Position numbers and translations under genes: made by a program
Part shown: positions 2,707 to 15,626 of the stretch, one piece after another
Position numbering within the stretch: the first letter of the stretch is position 1
Layout of the letters: each line of letters begins with the position of its first letter
NCBI RefSeq assembly: GCF_009193185.1
Contig: NZ_VUKF01000046.1
Location: 1 to 36,568 of the forward strand
Direction of reading: 5' to 3'
DNA: 36,568 nt
From: Georgenia thermotolerans
GTDB lineage: Bacteria > Actinomycetota > Actinomycetes > Actinomycetales > Actinomycetaceae
Notes under the pieces: generated by a model
Databases searched by the model: none
What the model saw: the letters and a program-made list of their open reading frames with translations, nothing else
Told to the model about the DNA's origin: nothing

Positions 2707-3197
2707 GCCTGGCCGTGTGCCCGGGCTCCTTCGACCCCATCACCTACGGGCACGTCGACGTGGTCCGCCGGGCGCGCGCCATGTTCGACGAGGTGGTCGT
2801 CGCCGTCGCGCACAACCCCGCCAAGCGGTACCTCTTCGACGCCGACCGGCGCGTCGCCCTGGCCCGCGCGGCGCTCGCCGACCTGCCCGGCGTGCGGGTC
2901 GAGCTCGTCGACGGCCTGCTCGCCCGCTACTGCCAGGACGTCGGCGCCGCGGCGATCGTCAAGGGCCTGCGCGGGGCCGCCGACTTCGACTCCGAGCAGG
3001 CGATGGCGCTGATGAACCGCCACCTGGTGGGCATCGAGACGGTCTTCGTCATGGGGGACCCCACCCTCGGGCACATCGCCTCGTCCATGGTCAAGGACGT
3101 CGCCAGCCACGGCGGCCCGATCGACGACCTCGTGCCGCCCGCCGTCGCCGCCGCGCTGCACCAGGCCCTGTCCGCACCCGCAGGAGAACAACGATGA
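2703..3197 (+). CDS. coaD: Pantetheine-phosphate adenylyltransferase
   Basis: A 164-residue nucleotidyltransferase that adds AMP from ATP to 4'-phosphopantetheine, the penultimate step of coenzyme A synthesis. The N-terminus CPGSFDPITYGH contains the T/HxGH ATP-binding motif (His17). KGLRGAADFDSE in mid-protein and SSMVKDVASHGG near the C-terminus, the counterpart of the usual ISSTxVR-type motif, complete the signature. I chose ATG 2703, not an earlier in-frame codon, because GAGGAAG lies just upstream and the family begins at this point. Its stop overlaps the start of the next gene by ATGA, so the two are translationally coupled. Confidence 0.96.
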   Translation: MSLAVCPGSFDPITYGHVDVVRRARAMFDEVVVAVAHNPAKRYLFDADRRVALARAALADLPGVRVELVDGLLARYCQDVGAAAIVKGLRGAADFDSEQAMALMNRHLVGIETVFVMGDPTLGHIASSMVKDVASHGGPIDDLVPPAVAAALHQALSAPAGEQR

Positions 3198-3703
3198 CGG
3201 CACCCACCACGCAGCAGCGCGCCGGCGACGGCGCCTCGCTGATCTCCATCCTCGACGAGCTCACCGCGATGCTCGACCGCGCCCGGGCGATGCCCATGTC
3301 GGCCTCCGTGCTGGTCAACAAGGCCGAGGCGCTCGACCTGCTCGACGCCGCGCGCGCCGTTGTGCCCGCGGAGATCCACGCCGCCGACGACATCGTCGCC
3401 GACGCCGACGCCGTCCTGCGCCGGGCCCGGGAGCAGGCCGAGCGGATCGTCGCCGACGCCGAGGCCGAGGCCGAGCGGCTCGTCGCCGGCGAGCGGGTGG
3501 TGACGCTCGCCAACGAGCGCGCCGAGCAGATCGTCGCCGAGGCCGAGGCGCAGGCGGCCAAGCTCGCCGCCGACGCCAACGACTACTGCGACCGCCAGCT
3601 CGCCCAGTTCGAGATCGACCTCGGGGCGATCACCGCCCAGGTGCGCGCCGGGCGCGAGGCGCTGGCCGCCCGCGGGGGCCGGGCGCCGCGCGAGCAGGAG
3701 TAG
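3194..3703 (+). CDS. Coiled-coil protein, DivIVA/AtpF-like
   Basis: A 169-residue soluble protein. After a short Thr/Gln-rich N-terminus come ISILDELTAMLDRARAMPMS and a long Ala/Glu/Arg helix of alternating AREQAERIVADAEAEAERL-type heptads (about residues 70-140), typical of proteins annotated as DivIVA-domain or ATP-synthase-b-like. There is no signal peptide or membrane segment. It overlaps coaD by 4 nt (ATGA), a common arrangement in Actinobacteria. A role in polar growth or cell-division scaffolding is an inference from the coiled coil; no enzyme motif is present. Confidence 0.75.
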   Translation: MTAPTTQQRAGDGASLISILDELTAMLDRARAMPMSASVLVNKAEALDLLDAARAVVPAEIHAADDIVADADAVLRRAREQAERIVADAEAEAERLVAGERVVTLANERAEQIVAEAEAQAAKLAADANDYCDRQLAQFEIDLGAITAQVRAGREALAARGGRAPREQE

Positions 3704-6295: not shown

Positions 6296-6334
6296 CCGGC
6301 GAGCGGCCGATGACGGCACCGGCCGGGCGCCGTC

Positions 6335-6440
6335 GTCGGAGCAGGGGCCACCGGGCGGACGCCCCTCGTCGGAGCAGGGGCCACCGGGCGGACGCCCCTC
6401 GTCGGAGCAGGCGCCACCGGGCGGACGCCCTCGTCGGAGA
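6335..6440 (+). repeat. 33-bp tandem repeat, three copies
   Basis: Units begin at 6335, 6368 and 6401, followed by the first 8 bases of a fourth at 6433. The first two are identical; the third has one substitution and lacks one C. Each unit contains GGGGCCACCGGGCGGACGCC or a near match. The repeat is intergenic, and there are no spacers, so it is not a CRISPR array. Confidence 0.9.
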
Positions 6441-6455
6441 AGGTGCCGACGTGCG

Positions 6456-6527
6456 GACACCGACGTCCCGGAAACGCCGGAATCGCCGGAATGGTCCCAC
6501 CCGCGCCCCCTGCGCCTTCGATAGGCT
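6456..6527 (+). promoter_or_regulatory. Promoter of the response regulator with two DosR-box-like sites
   Basis: TAGGCT (6522-6527) ends 7 nt before the GTG at 6534, indicating a leaderless transcript. A GTCCC half-site (6494-6498) falls in a 14-bp window centred at 6491.5, which is -42.5 from that start; its left half does not match. A further site, GACACCGACGTCCC (6456-6469), matches GGGAC-N4-GTCCC at 8 of 10 half-site positions and is centred near -71.5. Autoregulation is inferred from these sites. Confidence 0.45.
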
Positions 6528-6533
6528 CGGCTC

Positions 6534-7187
6534 GTGCCGTACGAACAGCAGACCGGACGCGACATCCGCGTCATGATCATCGATGACCACGAGATCGTCC
6601 GGCGGGGGATCGCCGAGATCGTCGACCGCGCCGACGGGCTCACCGTCGTCGCCGAGGCCGGCTCCGTGGCCGAGGCCGTGCGCCGCGGAGAGCTGGTGCG
6701 CCCCGACGTCATCCTCGTCGACCTCCAGCTGCCCGACGGCACCGGCATCGACATCATCACCACCCTGCGCGAGAAGATCCCGGACGCCCGCTCCGTCGTC
6801 CTGACCTCCTTCGACGACGACGACGCCCTGGCCGCCGCGCTCAACGCCGGCGCCAAGGCCTACCTGCTCAAGACCGTCCGCGGCGCCGAGATCGCCGACG
6901 TCGTCAAGGCAGTGGCCGCCGGCCGCACCCTGCTCGACGAGCGCACCGTCACCCGCCGGCGCGCCGACCACGACGACCCGACGGCGGACCTGACCCCCTC
7001 CGAGCGCAAGGTCCTCGAGCTCATCGGCGACGGGCTGTCCAACCGCGAGATCGGCGAGCGCCTGGGCGTGGCCGAGAAGACGGTGAAGAACCACATCACG
7101 GCGCTGCTGAGCAAGATGGGGCTGCAGCGGCGCACCCAGGTCGCGGCCTGGGTGGCCGGCCAGCGCGCCGCCGGCTGGCGCCAGTAG
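6534..7187 (+). CDS. DosR/DevR-like NarL-family response regulator
   Basis: A 217-residue two-component regulator. The receiver has the acidic pair Asp17-Asp18 in IIDDHEIVRRG, phospho-acceptor Asp63 in LVDLQLPDGTG, Thr91 and Lys113. A LuxR-type helix-turn-helix follows (LTPSERKVLELIGDGLSN). The recognition helix AEKTVKN has Lys182, Lys185 and Asn186, matching the DNA-contact residues Lys179, Lys182 and Asn183 of M. tuberculosis DosR; EAGSVAEA, LPDGxGI and GRTLLDxR are also shared. Length equals DosR. The GTG start is leaderless (TAGGCT 7 nt upstream). It converges on the cyd operon, whose last gene is the likely partner kinase. Regulation of cydA is inferred from the DosR-like box there. Confidence 0.93.
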   Translation: MPYEQQTGRDIRVMIIDDHEIVRRGIAEIVDRADGLTVVAEAGSVAEAVRRGELVRPDVILVDLQLPDGTGIDIITTLREKIPDARSVVLTSFDDDDALAAALNAGAKAYLLKTVRGAEIADVVKAVAAGRTLLDERTVTRRRADHDDPTADLTPSERKVLELIGDGLSNREIGERLGVAEKTVKNHITALLSKMGLQRRTQVAAWVAGQRAAGWRQ

Positions 7188-7222
7188 CGGCGCGAGCACG
7201 GCCCGCCCCCGGGTGAGCGCCG

Positions 7223-9190
7223 TCAGCTCAGCGGCACCTGCCAGCTCATGAGGCTGCCCTGGCCGCGCTCGTTGGCGCCCAGGGCGAAGGTGCCGCCGTG
7301 GCGGCGGGCCCGGGCGGCCAGGTTCGACAGGCCCGAGCTGCGGGTGACGGACGGGTCGACGCCGGTGCCGTCGTCCTCCACGTCCACGAGCACCCGCCCG
7401 GTCGGCCCGTTGCCGAGCACGCTCACGCGCACCTGCACCGAGGACGCCTTGGCGTGGCGGGCGGCGTTGGACATGCCCTCGCGCACCACGGCGACGACGT
7501 CGTCGGCGATGTCGGCGTCCACGCGGTTGTCGACGGCGTCGACGAGGTCGCTGTCGTCGTCGTCGCCGGCGATGACCACGCCGTCGACGTCGATGACGAG
7601 CGAGGGCGCGTAGCCCAGCGCGGTGCGGGCCAGCGAGGCCTCCCGGCGCAGGCGCTCGACGAGGACGATGGCGGTGTCGGGCTGGCGAAGCGAGTGGACG
7701 ATGGCGCGGATCTGCTTGACGGACTCGTCGACGCTGCCCAGCGACCGCTCGAGGAGGTCGGCCAGGGCCGCCTCGCCCCGCTCCGCCATGTGGGCGCGGG
7801 CGGACTCGAGCTGCATGCCGGTGGCGAAGAGCTGCTGGATGGCCAGGTCGTGCAGGTCCCGGCCGATGCGGGCGCGCTCGTCGAGGAGGGAGGCGACGTC
7901 CTGGGCGTGGCGGGCGGCGGCGAGCTCGAGGGCGAGGGCCGCCTGACCGGCGACCGACTCCGCCATGGCGAGGTCCGACTGCTCGAACTCCGGGGCGCCG
8001 ATCTCGCGCAGGAGCAGGATGACGCCCCGGCCCTCCCCGCGCAGCATCATCGGGGCGTACAGCGCCGGGCCGAAGCGGGCGAGCTCGCGCAGCCGGAGGG
8101 TGCGCAGGCGGGTGAGGGAGTCGACGATCATGCCGGCGCCCTCCTTGAGCACCGTCATGGCGCGCCCGTCCGGCGGGAAGACCAGCCCGAGCAGGTCGAG
8201 CGAGCCGGCGCCGTCGACGATCTCGCACGCCCAGGTGTCGCCCACGGAGGGCAGGACGATGAGCGCGGTGTCGGCCTCGGCGACCTCGCGCAGCCGCGCG
8301 GCGATCATCTCGAGGGCCTCTTCCTCCTCGGTGCCCTCGAGCAGGGTGGTGGTGATGTCCTGGCTCACGGCGATCCACCGCTCGCGGTTGCGGGCCTCGG
8401 TGTACAGGCGCGAGTTCTCGATCGACACCGCCGCCGCCTCGGCCAGGCTCATCATGTCGACGGCGTCGTGCTGGGAGAAGCCGCCGGGCTTCTCGGAGAG
8501 GTAGAGGCGGCCGAAGACCTGGTCGCGCACCTTCACCGGCACGCCGAGGAAGGAGTACATCGGCGGGTGGCCGGGCGGGAAGCCGCCGAAGTCCGGGTGC
8601 TGGGTGAGGTCGTCGAGCAGCAGGGGACCGTCCACCGGGATGGCGCCGAGCACGCCCTGCCCGCGGGGCGGGTGGCCGAGGATCGCGACCTCCTCCTCGC
8701 TCACGCCGACCTGGACGAACGCGGTGGTGTTGCCGCGGCTGTCGAGCACCCCCAGGGCGGCGTAGCGGGCGCCGGTGAGGCGGGCGGCGCGATCGACGAA
8801 GTTGCGCAGCGCGTCGGTGGTGTCCAGGTGCGAGGCGACGTTGATGGCCGCGCCGAGCAGGGACGAGGTGTCCGTGGCGATGGTGCGGCGGGCGCCGTCG
8901 ACGTGGGGGCCGGCGGTCATGGCGTGCGGGTTGACGAGACGGGGGCGGGCCGGGGCGTAGTCCCGGGTGTCGTCGTCGTCAAGGCTGGTGGGGGACCCGT
9001 GCGGGTCCATGCGGCCCACCCCGCCCGTGGCGCGCGTGCCGTCGCCGTGCGCGGGTGTCGCGCCGTGCGCGGGTGTCGCGCCGTGCCCGGCCGTCGCGCC
9101 GTGCCCGGCCGTCGCGCCGTCGCCGGACCCCGCACCCTGGGTCATGCCGTGGGGGAACGGGCATCCGCCGCGCTGGCCCTCGTCCTTCAT
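7223..9190 (-). CDS. DosS/DevS-like GAF-GAF sensor histidine kinase, last gene of the cyd operon
   Basis: A 655-residue cytoplasmic kinase. Residues 1-100 are low complexity with a Cys-Pro (CPFPHGM, Cys10) and GATAGH/GATPAH repeats. GAF-1 (about 105-265) resembles DosS GAF-A: GHPPRGQGVLG and FPPGHPPMYSFLGVPV, where His208 aligns with the proximal heme ligand His149 of DosS. GAF-2 spans about 270-430. The dimerisation/phospho-acceptor helix is ARIGRDLHDLAIQQLFATG (His447), followed by an HATPase_c domain with VREGMSNAARHAKA, DDGTG and SGLSNLAARA. The ATG overlaps the cydC stop by ATGA, so it is co-translated with the oxidase assembly genes. Heme binding and O2/redox/NO sensing are inferred. 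An internal start is possible. Confidence 0.92.
   Translation of the reverse strand: MKDEGQRGGCPFPHGMTQGAGSGDGATAGHGATAGHGATPAHGATPAHGDGTRATGGVGRMDPHGSPTSLDDDDTRDYAPARPRLVNPHAMTAGPHVDGARRTIATDTSSLLGAAINVASHLDTTDALRNFVDRAARLTGARYAALGVLDSRGNTTAFVQVGVSEEEVAILGHPPRGQGVLGAIPVDGPLLLDDLTQHPDFGGFPPGHPPMYSFLGVPVKVRDQVFGRLYLSEKPGGFSQHDAVDMMSLAEAAAVSIENSRLYTEARNRERWIAVSQDITTTLLEGTEEEEALEMIAARLREVAEADTALIVLPSVGDTWACEIVDGAGSLDLLGLVFPPDGRAMTVLKEGAGMIVDSLTRLRTLRLRELARFGPALYAPMMLRGEGRGVILLLREIGAPEFEQSDLAMAESVAGQAALALELAAARHAQDVASLLDERARIGRDLHDLAIQQLFATGMQLESARAHMAERGEAALADLLERSLGSVDESVKQIRAIVHSLRQPDTAIVLVERLRREASLARTALGYAPSLVIDVDGVVIAGDDDDSDLVDAVDNRVDADIADDVVAVVREGMSNAARHAKASSVQVRVSVLGNGPTGRVLVDVEDDGTGVDPSVTRSSGLSNLAARARRHGGTFALGANERGQGSLMSWQVPLS
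9044..9115 (-). repeat. 18-bp tandem repeat encoding GATAGH/GATPAH units
   Basis: Four 18-bp copies start at 9044, 9062, 9080 and 9098; the first two are identical to each other, as are the last two. They encode a His-containing six-residue repeat in the N-terminal tail of the sensor kinase. Confidence 0.9.
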
Positions 9191-11199
9191 CGTCGCACTT
9201 CCTGCTCTGCGGCCCACCGGTAGGCGGGCATCGTGGCCAGGAGCTCGCGGTGCGGGCCCCGTGCCAGCACGGTAGCCGGTGCGCGGGCCGGGCCGCGTGC
9301 GACGCCGTCGTCCACCTCCTCGGGCCTGCCGAGCACGATCACCTCGTCGGCGGCGTCCAGCGCCGCCAGCCGGTGGGTGACGAGGACGACGCCGCGCGCC
9401 GGCCCGGACCCGCCGTGCCGGCCGGCGCGCAGCAGGTCGGTGACGAGCCGGTCGGCGGTGGCGGGGTCGAGGTGCTCGCCGGGCTCGTCGAGCAGCAGCA
9501 GGGGCGCCGGGCTCGCCAGCGCGCGGGCCAGCAGGAGGCGGCGCCGCTCGCCGCCGGAGAGGGTCGTGGCGTCCGTCCCGAGCATGGTGTCCAGCCCCTG
9601 GGGCAGGCCGGCGAGCCAGTCGCCCAGCCCGGCGCGGGCGAGCAGGTCGGCGGCCTCCGCCTCGGTCACGCTGCCGCGGGCCACCCGCAGGTTCTCCAGC
9701 ACCGTGGTCGCGAAGACGTGCGCGTCCTCGGCGGTCAGCACCACCTGCTCGCTGACGACGCGCCGGTCGGTGCCCCACAGCGGCGCGCCGTCGAGGGTGG
9801 CGGCGCCGCCGCGCGGGGGCAGCAGCCCGGCCAGGGTCAGCAGCAGCGTGGTCTTGCCGATGCCGCTGGGGCCGACGACGGCGACCGCCCGGCCCGCGGC
9901 GAGGTCGAGGTCGAGGTCGAGGCCGGCGGCGACCACGGGACCGCCGGGCCAGCCGACCGCGAGGTTCCGGGCGGACAGGTGCGGGTGCCTCGCGGCGCCG
10001 GTGGCGTCGGGGGTCGTCCCCGCACCGGGGACGTCGGGTGCCGTCCTGGCGCTCTCGCGGTCGGGGAACGGCAGGGATGTCCTCGCCCGCTCCGGTGCAT
10101 CAGTTGACGTCTCGTGCCCCACGTGACCTCTCGTGACCGAGTTGACGTCTCGCGACCCAGTTGACGTCTCGCCGGCGGGGGCGGGGGCGGCGGCGTCGAG
10201 GAGCTCCATGATCCGCAGCGCCGAGCCGCCCGAGCGGACGAGCTGGATCGCGGCCGGGCCGAGCAGCGCCGTGCCCTCGAACGCCGCCAGCGGGGTCAGC
10301 ACCACGACGGCGAGCTCGACCGGCGCCAGCGTCCCCGCCGTGGTGGCCGGGATGCCGAGCACGAGCGCCCCGAGGACGGCGACGCCCATGGCCAGGTTGT
10401 CCACCCCGGCGGCCAGCGCGGCCGGGCGGGCGGCGGCGTCCTTGGCGCGGGCGAGCGTCGCCTCGGTGCGGCCCAGGTGGCTGAGCAGCCGGCCGAGCCG
10501 GCCGGAGACGGTCAGCTCCGCGGCGCCGTCGACCATCGTCTGCGCCGTGGCGGACAGGTCCGCCCGGGCGAGCAGCTGGGCGCGCTCGGACAGTCGCGCC
10601 GCCCGCATGGTCAGCCACGGGCCCGCGAGCCCGGCGACCAGCAGGCACACCGCCAGCAGCGCGCCGATGCCGGGGTGCAGCCAGCCGACCAGGGCCACCG
10701 TGCCCACCCCGACCACCGCGGCGACGGCGGCGGGGAGCAGGGCCCGGACGACGACGTCTCCGACCGCGTCGACGTCGGCGCCGGTGCGCGCGAGCAGGTC
10801 CCCGCGCCGCAGCCCGGCGACGGCGTCGACCGGCCCGTCGGCGAGGGCCTGGTACACGTGCTGGCGCAGCGACGCCATGCCGCGCAGGGCGACCTCGTGG
10901 GAGGCGAGGCGCTCGAGGTAGCGCATGAGCGCCCGGGAGATGCCGAAGGTGCGCACCGCCACCGAGGCGACGCCCAGCTCGAGGATCGGGGGCATCTGCG
11001 AGGCGCGGGCGATGAGCCAGGCGGCCGTCGCGCTCAGCGCGACCGCGCTGCCCAGGCCCGCGCTGCCGGCCAGCACCGCCCACAGCAGGCGGACGCGGTC
11101 GAGGTCGAGCAGGGCGACGGCGCGGCGCAGCGCCCGCCGCTCGGCGGCGGGCAGCACGCCGGCGGGGGAGGGAACGGCGGGGGCGGCGGTCGTGGTCAC
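9187..11199 (-). CDS. cydC: Heterodimeric ABC exporter subunit CydC (cytochrome bd assembly)
   Basis: A 670-residue half-transporter needed, with CydD, to assemble cytochrome bd; reported substrates of the pair are thiols and heme. The membrane domain occupies about 20-310 (GLGSAVALSATAAWLIARAS, RTFGISRALMRYLERLASHE), and the ATPase domain about 395-650 has Walker A GPSGIGKTT, signature LSGGERRRLLLARAL and Walker B LLLLDEPGEHLD. The GTG start at 11199 overlaps the cydD stop (GTGA) and its stop overlaps the kinase ATG (ATGA). The linker of about 70 residues between domains is long, and part of it is encoded by a 19-bp repeat whose length is not a multiple of three. It is most like CydC because of the AAWLIARAS motif and its position after CydD. 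Confidence 0.94.
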   Translation of the reverse strand: MTTTAAPAVPSPAGVLPAAERRALRRAVALLDLDRVRLLWAVLAGSAGLGSAVALSATAAWLIARASQMPPILELGVASVAVRTFGISRALMRYLERLASHEVALRGMASLRQHVYQALADGPVDAVAGLRRGDLLARTGADVDAVGDVVVRALLPAAVAAVVGVGTVALVGWLHPGIGALLAVCLLVAGLAGPWLTMRAARLSERAQLLARADLSATAQTMVDGAAELTVSGRLGRLLSHLGRTEATLARAKDAAARPAALAAGVDNLAMGVAVLGALVLGIPATTAGTLAPVELAVVVLTPLAAFEGTALLGPAAIQLVRSGGSALRIMELLDAAAPAPAGETSTGSRDVNSVTRGHVGHETSTDAPERARTSLPFPDRESARTAPDVPGAGTTPDATGAARHPHLSARNLAVGWPGGPVVAAGLDLDLDLAAGRAVAVVGPSGIGKTTLLLTLAGLLPPRGGAATLDGAPLWGTDRRVVSEQVVLTAEDAHVFATTVLENLRVARGSVTEAEAADLLARAGLGDWLAGLPQGLDTMLGTDATTLSGGERRRLLLARALASPAPLLLLDEPGEHLDPATADRLVTDLLRAGRHGGSGPARGVVLVTHRLAALDAADEVIVLGRPEEVDDGVARGPARAPATVLARGPHRELLATMPAYRWAAEQEVRR
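10103..10171 (-). repeat. 19-bp direct repeat array inside cydC
   Basis: On the plus strand the core GTTGACGTCTCG recurs at 10103, 10141 and 10160, with a diverged copy (CGTGACCTCTCG) at 10122, giving a strict 19-bp period. Because 19 is not divisible by 3, each unit is read in a different frame; the whole array stays in frame because three periods equal 57 bp. It encodes the segment around GSRDVNSVTRGHVGHETSTD in the linker. Confidence 0.9.
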
Positions 11200-12929
11200 C
11201 GGGCCACCTCCTCGGCTACCGCCGCCTCCGGGGCGGCGGCCTCCAGGGCGGCCACCTCGGCGTCGGTGGCGGCGCGCGAGCGGACCTCCACCACGTCGTC
11301 GGCCAGCGCCACGACCGCCTCGCGGTGGGCGATGACGAGCACGGTGCGCCCGGCGGCGCGCAGGGCGGCGAGGGTGTCGAGCACCTGCCGCTCGGCGGCG
11401 GCGTCCAGGTGCGCGGTGGGCTCGTCGAGGACCACCAGCGGCTCCGTGCCGAGCAGGGTGCGGGTCAGGGCCAGGCGCTGGCGCTGGCCGACGGACAGCC
11501 CCGCCCCGCCGTGGCCCAGGACGGCGTCCCACCCGGCGGGCAGCGCGGCGAGCACCCGGTCGAAGCCGGTGGCCGCGGCGGCCGCCTCCGCCGGGGCGTC
11601 GACCGGGGCGTCGGCGGCCCCGAGCACGTTCTCGCGCACCGTGCCGGGCAGGATGATCGGGCGCTGGGGCACCCAGGCGACCTGGGCGCGGTAGGCCGCG
11701 GGGTCGACGTCGGCGAGGTCCACCGGCGCGCCGTCGGCCGGCTCGAGGCGCACCGCGCCGGCGTCGGGGCGCAGCAGCCCCAGCACGACGGCGGCCGCGG
11801 TGGTCTTGCCCGCCCCCGACGGGCCGACCAGGGCCACCAGCCGGCCCGGCCGGATGCGGGCGTCCAGGCGCGAGGGCGCCCAGGTGGCCCGGCCCGGCGC
11901 GGCGACGCTCACGCCGTCGAGCACGACCGTGGTGCGGCGCAGCTCGGGGGCGGGGGCGCTCCCGGCGGGCGGGACCGGACGCTCGAGGACGGCGAAGGCC
12001 TGCTCGGCGGCGGCCACCCCGTCGGCGGAGGCGTGGAACTGCGAGCCGACCTCGCGCAGCGGCTTGTAGATCTCCGGGGCGAGCATGAGCACGGCCAGCC
12101 CGGTGGTCAGGTCCAGGTCGCCGGCCACGAGCCGGGTGCCGATGACCACGGCGACCAGCGCGACGGAGATGGAGGCGAGGAACTCCAGCACCGCGCCGGA
12201 GAGGAACGCCACGCGCAGGGTCGCCATGGTGGTGGCGGCGTAGGCGCGGCCGAGCTCGCCCACCCGCCGGCCCGGGCCGCGCTCGCGGCCCAGCGCCTTG
12301 AGGGTGCTCAGCCCGGCGAGCAGGTCGAGCAGCTGGGCGCCCAGGCGGGTCATGACCTCGAGCTTCTCGGCGGCGTACTTCTGGGTGAGCAGCCCGATGA
12401 GCCACATGAACACCGGGATGAGGGGGATCGTGGCGGCGATGATCAGCGCCGAGACGAGGTCGAGGCCGAGCACCACGGCCAGCGCGGCGGGCGTGACGGT
12501 CGCGGCGAGCAGCAGCTGGGGCAGGTAGCGCACGAAGTACGGCTCGAGGTCGTCCAGGCCGCGGGTGGCCAGGGTGACCACCTGCTGGCCGTGGCCCGCG
12601 GCCAGCCAGCGCGGGCCCTGGGCGACGGCGGCGGTGAGCACCTGCGCGCGCAGGTCCGCCACGACGTCGCGCGCCGCCCGGTGCGCGAAGGCCTCCTGGA
12701 CCACCAGCACCACGAACCGGCCCGCCACCACCGCGGCGAGGGCGCCGACCAGGCCCGCCACGTCCGCCCAGCCGGCCCGGCCGTCGACGACCGGGGCGAC
12801 GGCGTGGGAGACCAGCAGCGCCTGGGCGACCACCAAGGCGGCCGTGACGAACCCGGTGGCGGCCGTCAGGGCGATGTAGCGGCGGGCGGCGCGGGCGTGG
12901 CGGAGGAGGCGGGGGTCGAGCGGCTTCAC
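11196..12929 (-). CDS. cydD: Heterodimeric ABC exporter subunit CydD
   Basis: A 577-residue half-transporter, partner of CydC in cytochrome bd biogenesis. The membrane domain (about 15-300) includes RALLVSHAVAPVV-like TM1 and the conserved LPQLLLAATVTPAAL, IPLIPVFMWLIG and GLSTLKALGRE stretches typical of CydD. The ATPase domain has Walker A GPSGAGKTT, Q-loop WVPQRP, signature LSVGQRQRLALTRTLL and Walker B PLVVLDEPTAHLD. Start is GTG at 12929, only 4 nt after the cydB stop. The CydC start overlaps its stop by GTGA. Separate cydD and cydC genes, instead of the cydCD fusion seen in some Actinobacteria, are notable. Confidence 0.95.
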   Translation of the reverse strand: MKPLDPRLLRHARAARRYIALTAATGFVTAALVVAQALLVSHAVAPVVDGRAGWADVAGLVGALAAVVAGRFVVLVVQEAFAHRAARDVVADLRAQVLTAAVAQGPRWLAAGHGQQVVTLATRGLDDLEPYFVRYLPQLLLAATVTPAALAVVLGLDLVSALIIAATIPLIPVFMWLIGLLTQKYAAEKLEVMTRLGAQLLDLLAGLSTLKALGRERGPGRRVGELGRAYAATTMATLRVAFLSGAVLEFLASISVALVAVVIGTRLVAGDLDLTTGLAVLMLAPEIYKPLREVGSQFHASADGVAAAEQAFAVLERPVPPAGSAPAPELRRTTVVLDGVSVAAPGRATWAPSRLDARIRPGRLVALVGPSGAGKTTAAAVVLGLLRPDAGAVRLEPADGAPVDLADVDPAAYRAQVAWVPQRPIILPGTVRENVLGAADAPVDAPAEAAAAATGFDRVLAALPAGWDAVLGHGGAGLSVGQRQRLALTRTLLGTEPLVVLDEPTAHLDAAAERQVLDTLAALRAAGRTVLVIAHREAVVALADDVVEVRSRAATDAEVAALEAAAPEAAVAEEVAR

Positions 12930-12933
12930 CTGA

Positions 12934-13992
12934 TCAGTGTGCGGTGGGCTCGAGCGGCCGGCCCTCGGTGGGCAGCAGGCCCTCGTGATCCCCGATCTGG
13001 TCGGTGGTGATGCGCTTGCGGAACACCCAGTACGTCCAGCCCTGGTAGGCGAGCACGACCGGGACGAGGAGCAGCGCGACCACGCTCATCACCTGCAGCG
13101 TCGCCGTCGAGGAGGCGGCGGCGTCGATCGAGAGGGAGTAGGCGGGGTCGATCGAGGACGGCATGACGTTGGGGTACATCACCCCGAAGATGAGCACGAC
13201 GGCGGCCACGATCGCCACGGCGTTGAGGGTGAAGGCCCAGCCCTCCCGCCGGGCGCGGGTGGCCACGACGACGCCGACCAGCGCCAGCGCCGCGACGGCC
13301 AGCGGCACCCAGGTCAGGGTGTGCGCGGAGAAGGCCAGCTGCGCCCACACCGCCCAGATGCCGGCGACCACGAGGGAGGCCACCGAGAGCCGCGCGGCCA
13401 GCTTCCCGGCGCGCTCGCGCACCTCCCCGCCGGTCTTCAGGGCGACGAACACCGCGCCGTGGGTGAGGAAGACGACCGCGGTCATCACCCCGCCGAGCAG
13501 CGTGAACGGGGTGAGCAGGGAGAAGAACCCGCCCACGAGCTGGTGGCGCCCGTCGATGACCTCGATCTCGGTGCCCTGGACGAGGTTGGCGAAGGCCACG
13601 CCCCACAGCACCGCGGGCACCCACGACCCGACCGTGTGGGCCCAGTCCCAGCGGTTGCGCCACGCCGGGTCGTTGATCTTCGCGCGCCACTCGATCGCGC
13701 ACACCCGCACGATGAGCGCGAGCAGGATGAGCAGCAGGGGCAGGTAGAAGCCCGAGAACATCGTGGCGTACCACTCGGGGAAGGCGGCGAAGGTGGCGCC
13801 CCCGGCGGTGAGCAGCCAGACCTCGTTGCCGTCCCACACCGGGCCGATGGTGCGCAGCAGGACCCGGCGCTCCTTCTCGTTGCGGGCGAAGGGCTTGATC
13901 AGCATCCCGACGCCGAAGTCGAAGCCCTCGAGGACGAGGTACCCGGTCCACAGCACGGTGATGAGGAGGAACCACAGCAGGGGGAGATCCAT
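12934..13992 (-). CDS. cydB: Cytochrome bd ubiquinol oxidase subunit II
   Basis: A 352-residue integral membrane subunit that pairs with CydA in the bd-type quinol oxidase. The N-terminus LWFLLITVLWTGYLVLEGFDFG and the GPVWDGNEVWLLTAGGATFAAFPEWYA block are classic CydB signatures, followed by further TM helices and a cytoplasmic tail. The ATG at 13992 follows GGAGAA by a normal distance. It lies 21 nt after cydA and 4 nt before cydD in one operon. The length is shorter than in E. coli but usual for Actinobacteria. Confidence 0.96.
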   Translation of the reverse strand: MDLPLLWFLLITVLWTGYLVLEGFDFGVGMLIKPFARNEKERRVLLRTIGPVWDGNEVWLLTAGGATFAAFPEWYATMFSGFYLPLLLILLALIVRVCAIEWRAKINDPAWRNRWDWAHTVGSWVPAVLWGVAFANLVQGTEIEVIDGRHQLVGGFFSLLTPFTLLGGVMTAVVFLTHGAVFVALKTGGEVRERAGKLAARLSVASLVVAGIWAVWAQLAFSAHTLTWVPLAVAALALVGVVVATRARREGWAFTLNAVAIVAAVVLIFGVMYPNVMPSSIDPAYSLSIDAAASSTATLQVMSVVALLLVPVVLAYQGWTYWVFRKRITTDQIGDHEGLLPTEGRPLEPTAH

Positions 13993-14013
13993 GGGGAGTT
14001 CTCCAAGTCTCGG

Positions 14014-15522
14014 TCAGTAGGCGAAGGACAGGGTGGGCTCGAGCTCGCGCGGGCCGCCGGTGTCCGTGGGGCCGGCGGGGGCGACGTCCTCGGGCAGCGG
14101 TTCGATGCCCTCCCGGACGTAGCGGCGGATGAGCAGGAACCACACCACGCCCAGCGCGGCGTAGAGCAGCGTGAAGATGACGAGGGAGGTGATCACCGAG
14201 CCGGCCGAGACGACGGTGGAGACGCCGTCCTGCGTGAGCAGGTAGACCTGGTCCACCGGGTTGGCGGGGTTGGGGTGGACCACCCAGGGCTGGCGGCCCA
14301 TCTCGGTGAAGATCCAGCCGAAGGAGGAGGCGAGGAACGGCATCGGCAGGGCGACCAGGCACAGCCGGGAGAACCACACCGAGTCCGTGACACGGCCCCT
14401 GCGCAGCAGCCACAGCCCGGCCAGGGCCAGGGCGGCGGAGAAGGCGGCCAGCCCGATCATGAGCCGGAAGCTCCAGTAGGTCACGGCCAGGTTGGGGACG
14501 TAGTCCACGTCGGTGCCGAACTGGTCGGCGTAGCGCTCGGTGTACTCGCGCTGGACGTCGTTGACGCCGGGCAGGTAGCTCTCCGGCCCGGAGAAGTGGC
14601 CGGTGCCGAGGAACGACGTCACCCCCGGGATCTGGATGAGGTGGCGCACGCCCTCGCAGGAGTTGGACAGGTCCCCGATGGTCAGCAGGGAGAACGCGGC
14701 GCCCTCCTCGCCCTCGCACAACGCCTCGGCCGCGGACATCTTGGCGGGCTGCTGCTCGTACATGAGCTTGCCCTGGAAGTCCCCGGAGATCCCCACCCCG
14801 ACGCCGGCGATGAGCATCGTGATCAGGCCGACGTAGGCGCCGCGGCGCCACACCTGCCGGGCCTCGTTCTCGCGCCCGGCGCGCACCGAGCGCACGATCC
14901 ACCAGCCGCAGATGCCGGCGACGAAGGTGCCGCCGACCAGGAACGCGGCGGTCACGGTGTGGGAGTAGGCGGCGATGAGGGTGTTGTTGGTCATCACCTC
15001 GAGGAAGCCGCGCACGCCGTCGAGCTCGGCGCGGCCGGTGGCGGGGTTGTACACCGCGCCGACCGGGTGCTGCATCCAGGAGTTCGCCGCCAGGATCCAG
15101 TAGGCCGAGAGGTTCGTGCCGATCGCCACGAGCCAGATGCAGGCGCTGTGCAGCCACTTGGGCAGCTTGCCCTCGCCGAAGATCCACAGGCCCAGGAACG
15201 TGGACTCGAGGAAGAACGCGGCGAGGGCCTCGATGGCCAGCGGGGCGCCGAAGATGTCGCCCACGAACCGGGAGTACTCCGACCAGTTCATGCCGAACTG
15301 GAACTCCTGGACGATGCCGGTGGCCACGCCCAGGGCGAAGTTGATGAGCAGGACCTTGCCGAAGAACTTCGTCAGCCGGTGCCAGCGCTCGTTGCCCGTG
15401 CGGACCCAGGCGGTGTGCATGATCGCCACCAGGGGGGACAGGCCGATCGTGAGCGGCACGAGGATGAAGTGGTAGACGGTCGTGATGCCGAACTGCCACC
15501 GAGCGAGGTCGAGGGATTCCAC
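14014..15522 (-). CDS. cydA: Cytochrome bd ubiquinol oxidase subunit I
   Basis: A 502-residue heme-carrying subunit of the high-affinity terminal oxidase. The heme ligands are His18 in TTVYHFILVPLTIG, His188 in AAYSHTVTAAF, and Met355 with Arg353 in WSFRLMIG; Glu98 and Glu106 of the proton channel are present, as are the Q-loop GDFQGKLMYEQQPAKMSAAE and GRQPW. I chose GTG at 15522, preceded by GAAGGG, because CydA proteins begin just before the LDLARWQFG segment; a longer upstream frame exists but has no family similarity. It is the first gene of cydA-cydB-cydD-cydC-kinase. A DosR-type palindrome lies at about -42.5 from the predicted start of transcription. Confidence 0.96.
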   Translation of the reverse strand: MESLDLARWQFGITTVYHFILVPLTIGLSPLVAIMHTAWVRTGNERWHRLTKFFGKVLLINFALGVATGIVQEFQFGMNWSEYSRFVGDIFGAPLAIEALAAFFLESTFLGLWIFGEGKLPKWLHSACIWLVAIGTNLSAYWILAANSWMQHPVGAVYNPATGRAELDGVRGFLEVMTNNTLIAAYSHTVTAAFLVGGTFVAGICGWWIVRSVRAGRENEARQVWRRGAYVGLITMLIAGVGVGISGDFQGKLMYEQQPAKMSAAEALCEGEEGAAFSLLTIGDLSNSCEGVRHLIQIPGVTSFLGTGHFSGPESYLPGVNDVQREYTERYADQFGTDVDYVPNLAVTYWSFRLMIGLAAFSAALALAGLWLLRRGRVTDSVWFSRLCLVALPMPFLASSFGWIFTEMGRQPWVVHPNPANPVDQVYLLTQDGVSTVVSAGSVITSLVIFTLLYAALGVVWFLLIRRYVREGIEPLPEDVAPAGPTDTGGPRELEPTLSFAY

Positions 15523-15582
15523 CTGGGCGCCCTTCGTGACTAGATGCGTGCGGGCAGCCGAAAGCCCGGCTGTTGTGCTGCC

Positions 15583-15588
15583 AACGTA
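15583..15588 (-). promoter_or_regulatory. -10 box of the cydABDC-kinase operon
   Basis: On the minus strand TACGTT reads from 15588 to 15583, giving a predicted start near 15576 and a leader of about 54 nt. There is no good -35 hexamer at the usual spacing; the DosR-like palindrome occupies that area, as expected for an activator-dependent promoter. Confidence 0.55.
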
Positions 15589-15610
15589 AGAGCGGGGGCT
15601 CGGGGCGGGG

Positions 15611-15626
15611 CGGGACCAACGTCCCG
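15611..15626. promoter_or_regulatory. DosR-box-like palindrome CGGGAC-N4-GTCCCG upstream of cydA
   Basis: The sequence CGGGACCAACGTCCCG is a perfect inverted repeat of 6-bp arms with a 4-bp spacer. It matches the core and spacing of the published mycobacterial DosR consensus TTSGGGACTWWAGTCCCSAA, though not the WW spacer or the outer TT/AA. Its centre (15618.5) is 42.5 bp upstream of the predicted cydA start at 15576, the usual position for an activator touching RNA polymerase. Confidence 0.7.

Follow-up and report, generated by a model that had tools for sequence, protein, structure and literature searches.

A stretch of 36,568 bases from the 4.64-Mb draft genome of Georgenia thermotolerans (contig NZ_VUKF01000046.1, positions 1 to 36,568; the window in what follows) raises the question of whether a two-component pair encoded beside a cytochrome bd oxidase operon controls that operon. 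The window carries a cydABDC operon, directly followed by a gene for a DosS/DosT-type sensor kinase and, beyond it, by a convergent gene for a DosR-like response regulator. Comparison of this locus with those of related genomes leads us to consider it likely that the DosRS-type pair activates the cytochrome bd operon, with the sensor kinase being that operon's fifth gene. The features on which this reading rests are as follows.

6534-7187, plus strand: DosR-like NarL-family response regulator of 217 amino acids (Response_reg and GerE domains), convergent (tail to tail) with the kinase gene
7223-9190, minus strand: DosS/DosT-type sensor kinase of 655 amino acids, with an N-terminal extension (residues ~1-110), GAF-A (~122-267, with His208), GAF-B, HisKA_3 (with His447), and HATPase
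9187-9190, minus strand: 4-base sequence ATGA, in which the cydC stop overlaps the kinase start, with AGGAAG shortly upstream
9187-11199, minus strand: cydC (TIGR02868 above cut-off)
11196-12929, minus strand: cydD (TIGR02857 above cut-off)
12934-13992, minus strand: cydB (PF02322 and TIGR00203 above cut-off)
14014-15522, minus strand: cydA (PF01654 above cut-off), with a GTG start codon at 15522
15583-15588, minus strand: -10 hexamer TACGTT, 23 nucleotides (nt) from the box
15611-15626, no strand assigned: DosR-type box CGGGACCAACGTCCCG, of the form GGGAC-N4-GTCCC, upstream of cydA

The sensor kinase as the fifth gene of the cyd operon

The four cyd genes, each with a family-level match, stand in the same order (cydA-cydB-cydD-cydC) as in other actinobacterial cydABDC operons, from which the present one differs in the addition of the kinase gene. 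A preliminary description of the locus had reported that the kinase ATG overlaps the cydC stop, and the two genes do share the ATGA listed above; the kinase is thus predicted to be cotranscribed with the oxidase genes. The same description had regarded the joining of such a kinase to a cyd operon as unusual, a view that a comparative search for the adjacency overturned, as the arrangement proved to be common in the order. In a sample of 198 genomes (a kinase match at an E value of 1e-60 in 102 and a CydA match at the same threshold in 182), 50 of the 65 strong kinase matches (>300 bits, window included) are located 4.5 to 11 kb 3' of cydA and share its strand. Among the other 15, three have another orientation within 16 kb, nine are on a different contig from cydA, one is far away, and two have no CydA entry among the matches listed. 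A scan of named genomes, covering the best 80 of 224 loci encoding a kinase relative, found the kinase as the fifth cyd gene in 75 of the 80 (74 by script and locus L024 by reading), the loci having been chosen by their kinase. The cydC-kinase overlap is present in 76 of 88 linked loci when the start nearest the cydC stop is preferred, with a gap of no more than 20 nt in eight others. Among the matches listed, the named relative nearest to the window kinase is that of Georgenia ruanii (88% identity; 97% for the regulator and 96% for CydA). We also observed that four loci titled Tissierella, Xylanimonas, Sanguibacter, and Proteobacteria (L028, L062, L065, and L073) encode kinases that fall inside the Varibaculum, Schaalia, or Cellulomonas groups; these are probably contaminated or mislabelled assemblies.

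A box in activator position upstream of cydA

The 14-base core of the box, GGGACCAACGTCCC (15612-15625), is the single exact core within the window and has a chance expectation of about 0.002 per 330 bp. Its placement 42.5 bp before the cydA start, as originally proposed, holds for the transcription start near 15576 implied by the TACGTT hexamer, which would put the box centre at -42.5, but not for the GTG start codon, from which the centre is 96 bp away. Within the window, there is no Rex site with up to three mismatches, and no core precedes the regulator gene.

What distinguishes the box is the constancy of its setting. The named-genome scan yielded 63 loci with 300 bases upstream of cydA, and in these and the window (64 regions), the exact core is present in 31 and the core with one mismatch in 22 more. 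In 52 regions, a core with at most one mismatch lies 60 to 150 bp from the cydA start codon, and 41 of these have a TANNNT hexamer 22 to 24 nt beyond the box (spacings of 21 to 24 nt were tested), against a mean of 1.4 and a maximum of 6 with shuffled spacers. With this spacing, the box centre would fall between about -41.5 and -43.5, where class II activators bind. The combination of box (at most one mismatch) and TANNNT at 22 to 24 nt occurs once apiece in 41 of the 63 cydA upstream regions and at one site elsewhere in the 1.464 Mb of named loci, on both strands. On the basis of these comparisons, the significance of the box appears to be in its conserved place and not in its rarity.

The combination also goes with the linked kinase. 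A first count, with the box at up to one mismatch and the -10 hexamer at 21 to 25 nt, found it in 15 of the 20 genomes chosen for a linked kinase and in 5 of the 20 that had no kinase match. When the C-terminal part of the kinase was used as the query, short linked kinases came to light in five of the latter 20: G172, G174, G160, and G029, which have the box, and G011, in which it is absent. With these reclassified, and with G104 (box present; ends at a contig edge) left out, the corrected figures are 19 of 25 where a kinase is linked versus 0 of 14 where none is (Fisher, 3e-6); two of the 14 (L141 and L152) have a one-mismatch core with no -10 hexamer. The genome sample and the named loci overlap (G137/L038, G158/L089, and G030/L025), and the two sets are not independent. 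Recognition of GGGAC-N4-GTCCC by the regulator is predicted from this co-occurrence. The combination of box and -10 hexamer is absent from all 20 cydA genes taken from other orders of the class; four of them do have a core, with one mismatch in three cases and none in L219. DosS-like kinases are found near cydA in varied arrangements in those orders (L189, L190, L193, and L194), with an exact core upstream of cydA and no -10 hexamer at the usual spacing in L190, L193, and L194 and a one-mismatch core in L189.

Identity of the kinase and the regulator and a predicted mechanism

The window kinase has the GAF-GAF-HisKA_3-HATPase architecture of the heme sensor kinases DosS and DosT, and among solved structures, it most closely matches the GAF-A domains of the two Mycobacterium tuberculosis proteins (E value, ~1e-34). 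A model of its GAF-A domain superposes on the solved structures with a root mean square deviation of 1.6 to 2.9 Å, a TM-score by target of 0.83 to 0.90, and 45 to 49% identity. His208 aligns with DosS His149, given as the heme ligand in the review that we drew on for DosS (PMC4082495), which bears out the earlier description of a DosS-like kinase with a heme-ligand histidine. Further, Tyr230 and Gly147 occupy the places of the distal Tyr171 and of Glu87 of DosS; a glycine at the latter place, as in DosT, is associated in the same review with stable oxygen binding, although the data are described as conflicting (PMC4082495). Heme-based sensing by the window kinase is therefore likely, though its heme content is predicted from these residues. 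The phosphoacceptor histidine (His447 in the window kinase) is kept in all 115 kinase C termini compared, and the kinase is the sole one of its kind in its genome, the next match having an E value of 5e-7. The DNA coding for its N-terminal extension, which begins MKDEGQRGGCPFPHGM, contains an 18-bp repeat (9025-9120). A CP motif in this extension was considered as a heme motif and dropped, a CP-like motif being present in just 3 of 88 linked loci.

The regulator is a NarL-family protein with a phosphoacceptor aspartate, and its best solved relative is DevR/DosR (chain 3c3w; E value, 1.5e-52). Its Asp63, Lys182, Lys185, and Asn186 are identical in 97 of 97 regulator matches, and the last three are the counterparts of Lys179, Lys182, and Asn183, which we take to be DNA contacts of DosR. 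A DosR-like regulator with conserved DNA-contact residues, as first described, is thus what the comparison indicates, given these assumed contacts. Upstream of its gene, between mutM and the regulator, is a tandem repeat of a 33-bp unit (4.4 copies; 6317-6458).

Together, these observations suggest the following mechanism. Falling oxygen, another heme ligand, or a redox change would cause GAF-A to release autophosphorylation of the kinase, which would pass its phosphate to the convergently encoded DosR-like regulator. The phosphorylated regulator would bind GGGAC-N4-GTCCC, centered about 42.5 bp before the cydA transcription start, and activate cydABDC together with the kinase gene. The resulting positive loop would take in the kinase and not the regulator, such that oxidase, assembly transporter, and sensor rise together.

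Repeated loss of the heme domain or the heme ligand

A GAF-A match was found in 90 of 98 loci from relatives; the other eight are three stretches without a kinase and five kinases without GAF-A (L119 to L123). Five further kinases without GAF-A (L184 to L188) were found, of which that of L188 reads in two frames, perhaps as a result of a frameshift. The kinases of this type begin at or near GAF-B and are encoded next to cydC, and all 10 loci have a regulator match. Where GAF-A is matched, the heme histidine is kept in 75 of the 90 loci. In a tree of 115 kinase C termini, a quick one with SH-aLRT support only and several long branches, the absence of GAF-A (nine rows) needs three changes, all three forced by well-supported branches, and the loss of the heme histidine needs seven, of which five are forced. 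Because GAF-A or the heme ligand is absent in many linked orthologues, heme-based sensing, as judged from their sequences, cannot be the rule for the whole group; and because at least 10 linked kinases have no GAF-A, it is not what holds the arrangement together.

Where cydA is linked, the combination of box and -10 hexamer is present in 45 of 59 loci with the heme histidine, in none of 15 in which it is replaced, and in 9 of 10 without GAF-A. Loss of GAF-A thus does not appear to cost the box. The comparisons indicate that GAF-A has been lost at least three times while the kinase, the regulator, and usually the box stayed, a finding that is new in this analysis. A tie between loss of the heme histidine and loss of the box (0 of 15 versus 45 of 59; Fisher, 4e-8) was considered and is not claimed, as a tree-aware test had too few independent pairs. 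The 15 loci are mostly from one Actinomycetaceae group, with L071 and L203 from the same genome, and L127, in which cydA is turned round and which stands outside the 15, is a counterexample. Several loci of a Schaalia/Actinomyces group without the heme histidine (L062, L064, L065, L071, L078, L088, and L094) share a variant of the core, GTGAC-N4-GTCCC, which is conserved and keeps a constant position upstream of cydA, without the usual -10 spacing.

Tentatively, one might conceive of a system in which the output, i.e., DosR-type control of cydABDC and the kinase, is kept while the input is repeatedly swapped, with GAF-B or the amount of kinase, rather than heme with a bound gas, providing the signal in lineages without GAF-A. 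If true, such swapping would make GAF-B the core sensor of this kinase family. The kinases that naturally have no heme domain offer a way to ask what GAF-B does.

The reach of the predicted circuit

The locus had been described as a self-contained circuit, and this is doubtful. The kinase would be within the loop, but the regulator gene mostly has no box, the pair and the cyd operon are apart in some relatives, and there are other candidate targets. A core with at most one mismatch lies within 300 bp of the regulator gene in 1 of 70 loci, which gives no sign of a DosR-like autoregulatory site; because the other 69 have no such core, the predicted loop runs through the kinase alone. Hence, of the feedback proposed earlier, in which oxidase and sensor levels are set together, the part that places the kinase in the cyd operon under the box finds support, while the regulator itself would stay outside the loop.

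The separated loci are of several kinds. In G067, the kinase-regulator pair lies about 280 kb from the cyd operon, and cydA still keeps its box and -10 hexamer. Georgenia subflava (L020) has the pair but is missing the orthologous cyd operon; 338 bases, 78% identical to the upstream region of the window's cydA, now precede its kinase. The genome's one CydA match (L225) is divergent, with 44% identity; a core with one mismatch precedes it by 44 bp, with no -10 hexamer by the rule used. Kinase and cyd operon are also apart in Cellulomonas fimi SB (L058, from the genome also sampled as G144), where the region upstream of cydA has no box. CydA is present in the genomes of all three loci with an unlinked kinase that were compared in this respect (L020, 44%; L058, 85%; L067, 43%), with no core upstream in L058 and L067. 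The idea that, as a rule, a kinase displaced from the cyd operon acquires a box of its own again was rejected, as it held for one of five cases in the order (L067 and not L020, L058, L125, or L134), and the box in L067 has no -10 hexamer at the usual spacing. The unlinked kinase of L124, which has no heme histidine, has a box and -10 hexamer, but 569 bp before the match.

Of 17 exact cores in the G. thermotolerans genome, five, including that of the window, have a -10 hexamer at 22 to 24 nt. The candidate targets are as follows.

Gene for a helix-turn-helix regulator, with two genes after it that have no Pfam match: box with a -10 hexamer at 22 nt
HbpS-like gene: box with a -10 hexamer at 22 nt
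Small FeoA-like gene (assigned by eye): box with a -10 hexamer at 22 nt
L110 (G000:C50), 3501-3555: tandem pair of exact boxes separated by 41 bp, with TAGGTT 22 nt from the second
L114 (G000:C32), 3001-3014: exact box, with a weaker -10 hexamer (TACAAA), ahead of an operon for pyruvate:ferredoxin oxidoreductase

The tandem boxes face a cobalamin adenosyltransferase gene from its 3' side, the gene being on the opposite strand; no plus-strand gene was found there, and the site could give rise to a small or antisense RNA. The box before the pyruvate:ferredoxin oxidoreductase operon recurs, with one mismatch and a -10 hexamer, in two of six relatives with the gene (L178 and L182) and not in the other four, which makes this operon a suggestive candidate at most. 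In L111 (G000:C28; 2271-3014), we observed a NarL-family regulator in two frames just before an exact box with no -10 hexamer at the usual spacing.

Weighing of alternative explanations

Several points weigh against activation of the operon by the pair. The bare core occurs at 17 sites in the 4.6-Mb genome versus 10 for a reversed control pattern, and because this is no clear excess, we claim no regulon from the bare box. Twenty-two of the 63 cydA upstream regions are without the combination of box and -10 hexamer, among them all 15 linked loci (14 distinct genomes) whose kinase has lost the heme histidine, and the linked kinases without GAF-A number at least 10. Moreover, the reclassification of the control set came after the first count of 5 of 20, and the counts of box and kinase are uncorrected for relatedness. 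The genome-wide count could be taken to favor linkage without function, with the kinase just riding in the operon and the box there by chance. Against this stand the 41 of 63 upstream regions versus one site in the rest of the 1.464 Mb and a -10 spacing far above that of the shuffles, and such a conserved footprint makes the chance explanation very unlikely. It is also unlikely that another NarL-family regulator binds the cydA box, with the neighboring DosR-like regulator acting elsewhere and the kinase linked for another reason. Candidates are not scarce, as the family has 39 matches in the window's genome, from 42% identity (the nearest paralogue) downward, and in the Varibaculum loci L032, L034, and L040, the kinase is cyd linked with no regulator match nearby. 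However, these Varibaculum loci are also without the box, the box with its -10 hexamer goes with the linked kinase (19 of 25 versus 0 of 14), and the presumed DosR DNA-contact residues are kept in all 97 regulators.

The direction of control cannot be read from sequence, and the regulator might repress cyd or merely tune a promoter driven by something else; as the predicted position of the box is beside but not over the -10 hexamer, we regard this as improbable. An alternative that deserves more weight, and that we consider possible without favoring it, is that the kinase senses a cue other than oxygen, such as redox state, NO or CO, heme supply, or a ligand of GAF-B, and that control by oxygen is indirect. 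The absence of GAF-A in ten linked loci and of its histidine in fifteen more would fit this, as would the treatment of DosS in the review cited above, in which the role of GAF-B is presented as unsettled and the bare kinase domain as active by itself (PMC4082495). The window kinase, however, has the heme histidine, the distal tyrosine, and the DosT-like glycine. On balance, activation of cyd by a DosRS-type pair best accounts for the observations, and the central elements of the preliminary description, namely, such a pair, the position of its kinase gene at the end of the cyd operon, and a DosR-type box placed as for an activator, gain support from comparison.

Comparison with known systems

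With the mycobacterial DosS/DosT-DosR (DevSR) system, the locus shares the kinase architecture, the heme histidine, the regulator family, the box, and its place at about -42.5, GGGAC-N4-GTCCC at about -42.5 being what we take to be the arrangement in M. tuberculosis. It differs in that the kinase gene is in the cyd operon, cydA is a predicted target, and a separate gene, boxless in 69 of 70 loci, encodes the regulator. An autoregulatory site of devR is named in the report on OsdR (PMC5069765). In Mycobacterium smegmatis, cyd expression is described as dependent on PrrAB (PMC6898941), and CO is reported to induce both cyd and the dos regulon (PMC8125079).

Outside the mycobacteria, OsdK-OsdR of Streptomyces coelicolor is likewise a DosRS-like pair, with an equal spacing of half-sites, but the published OsdR consensus, AGGGCCGATCGGCCCT, is different (PMC5069765); the main text of that regulon paper contains no term beginning with "cyd" (PMC5069765). 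HrrSA of Corynebacterium glutamicum, the likeness of which is taken from its description, is also a two-component system with a heme-linked cue, and HrrA is reported to bind upstream of cydABDC; it differs in answering heme and in favoring the bc1-aa3 branch through sigC (PMC7337898). A genome paper on Actinotignum schaalii reports cydABDC there and ascribes control of the operon to ArcAB and FNR, citing work on Escherichia coli (PMC5720513). In listings of the open-access literature, we found no description of a DosR-cyd or kinase-cyd link in other actinobacteria, and a report elsewhere may exist. Compared with these systems, the predicted circuit stands as a widespread form of DosRS whose kinase gene has its place among the cyd genes and, most strikingly, whose heme sensor appears to be expendable. 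It offers a conserved possible answer to how the high-affinity oxidase is controlled in many nonmycobacterial actinobacteria and presents, in harmless organisms amenable to testing, DosRS wiring outside the dormancy setting.

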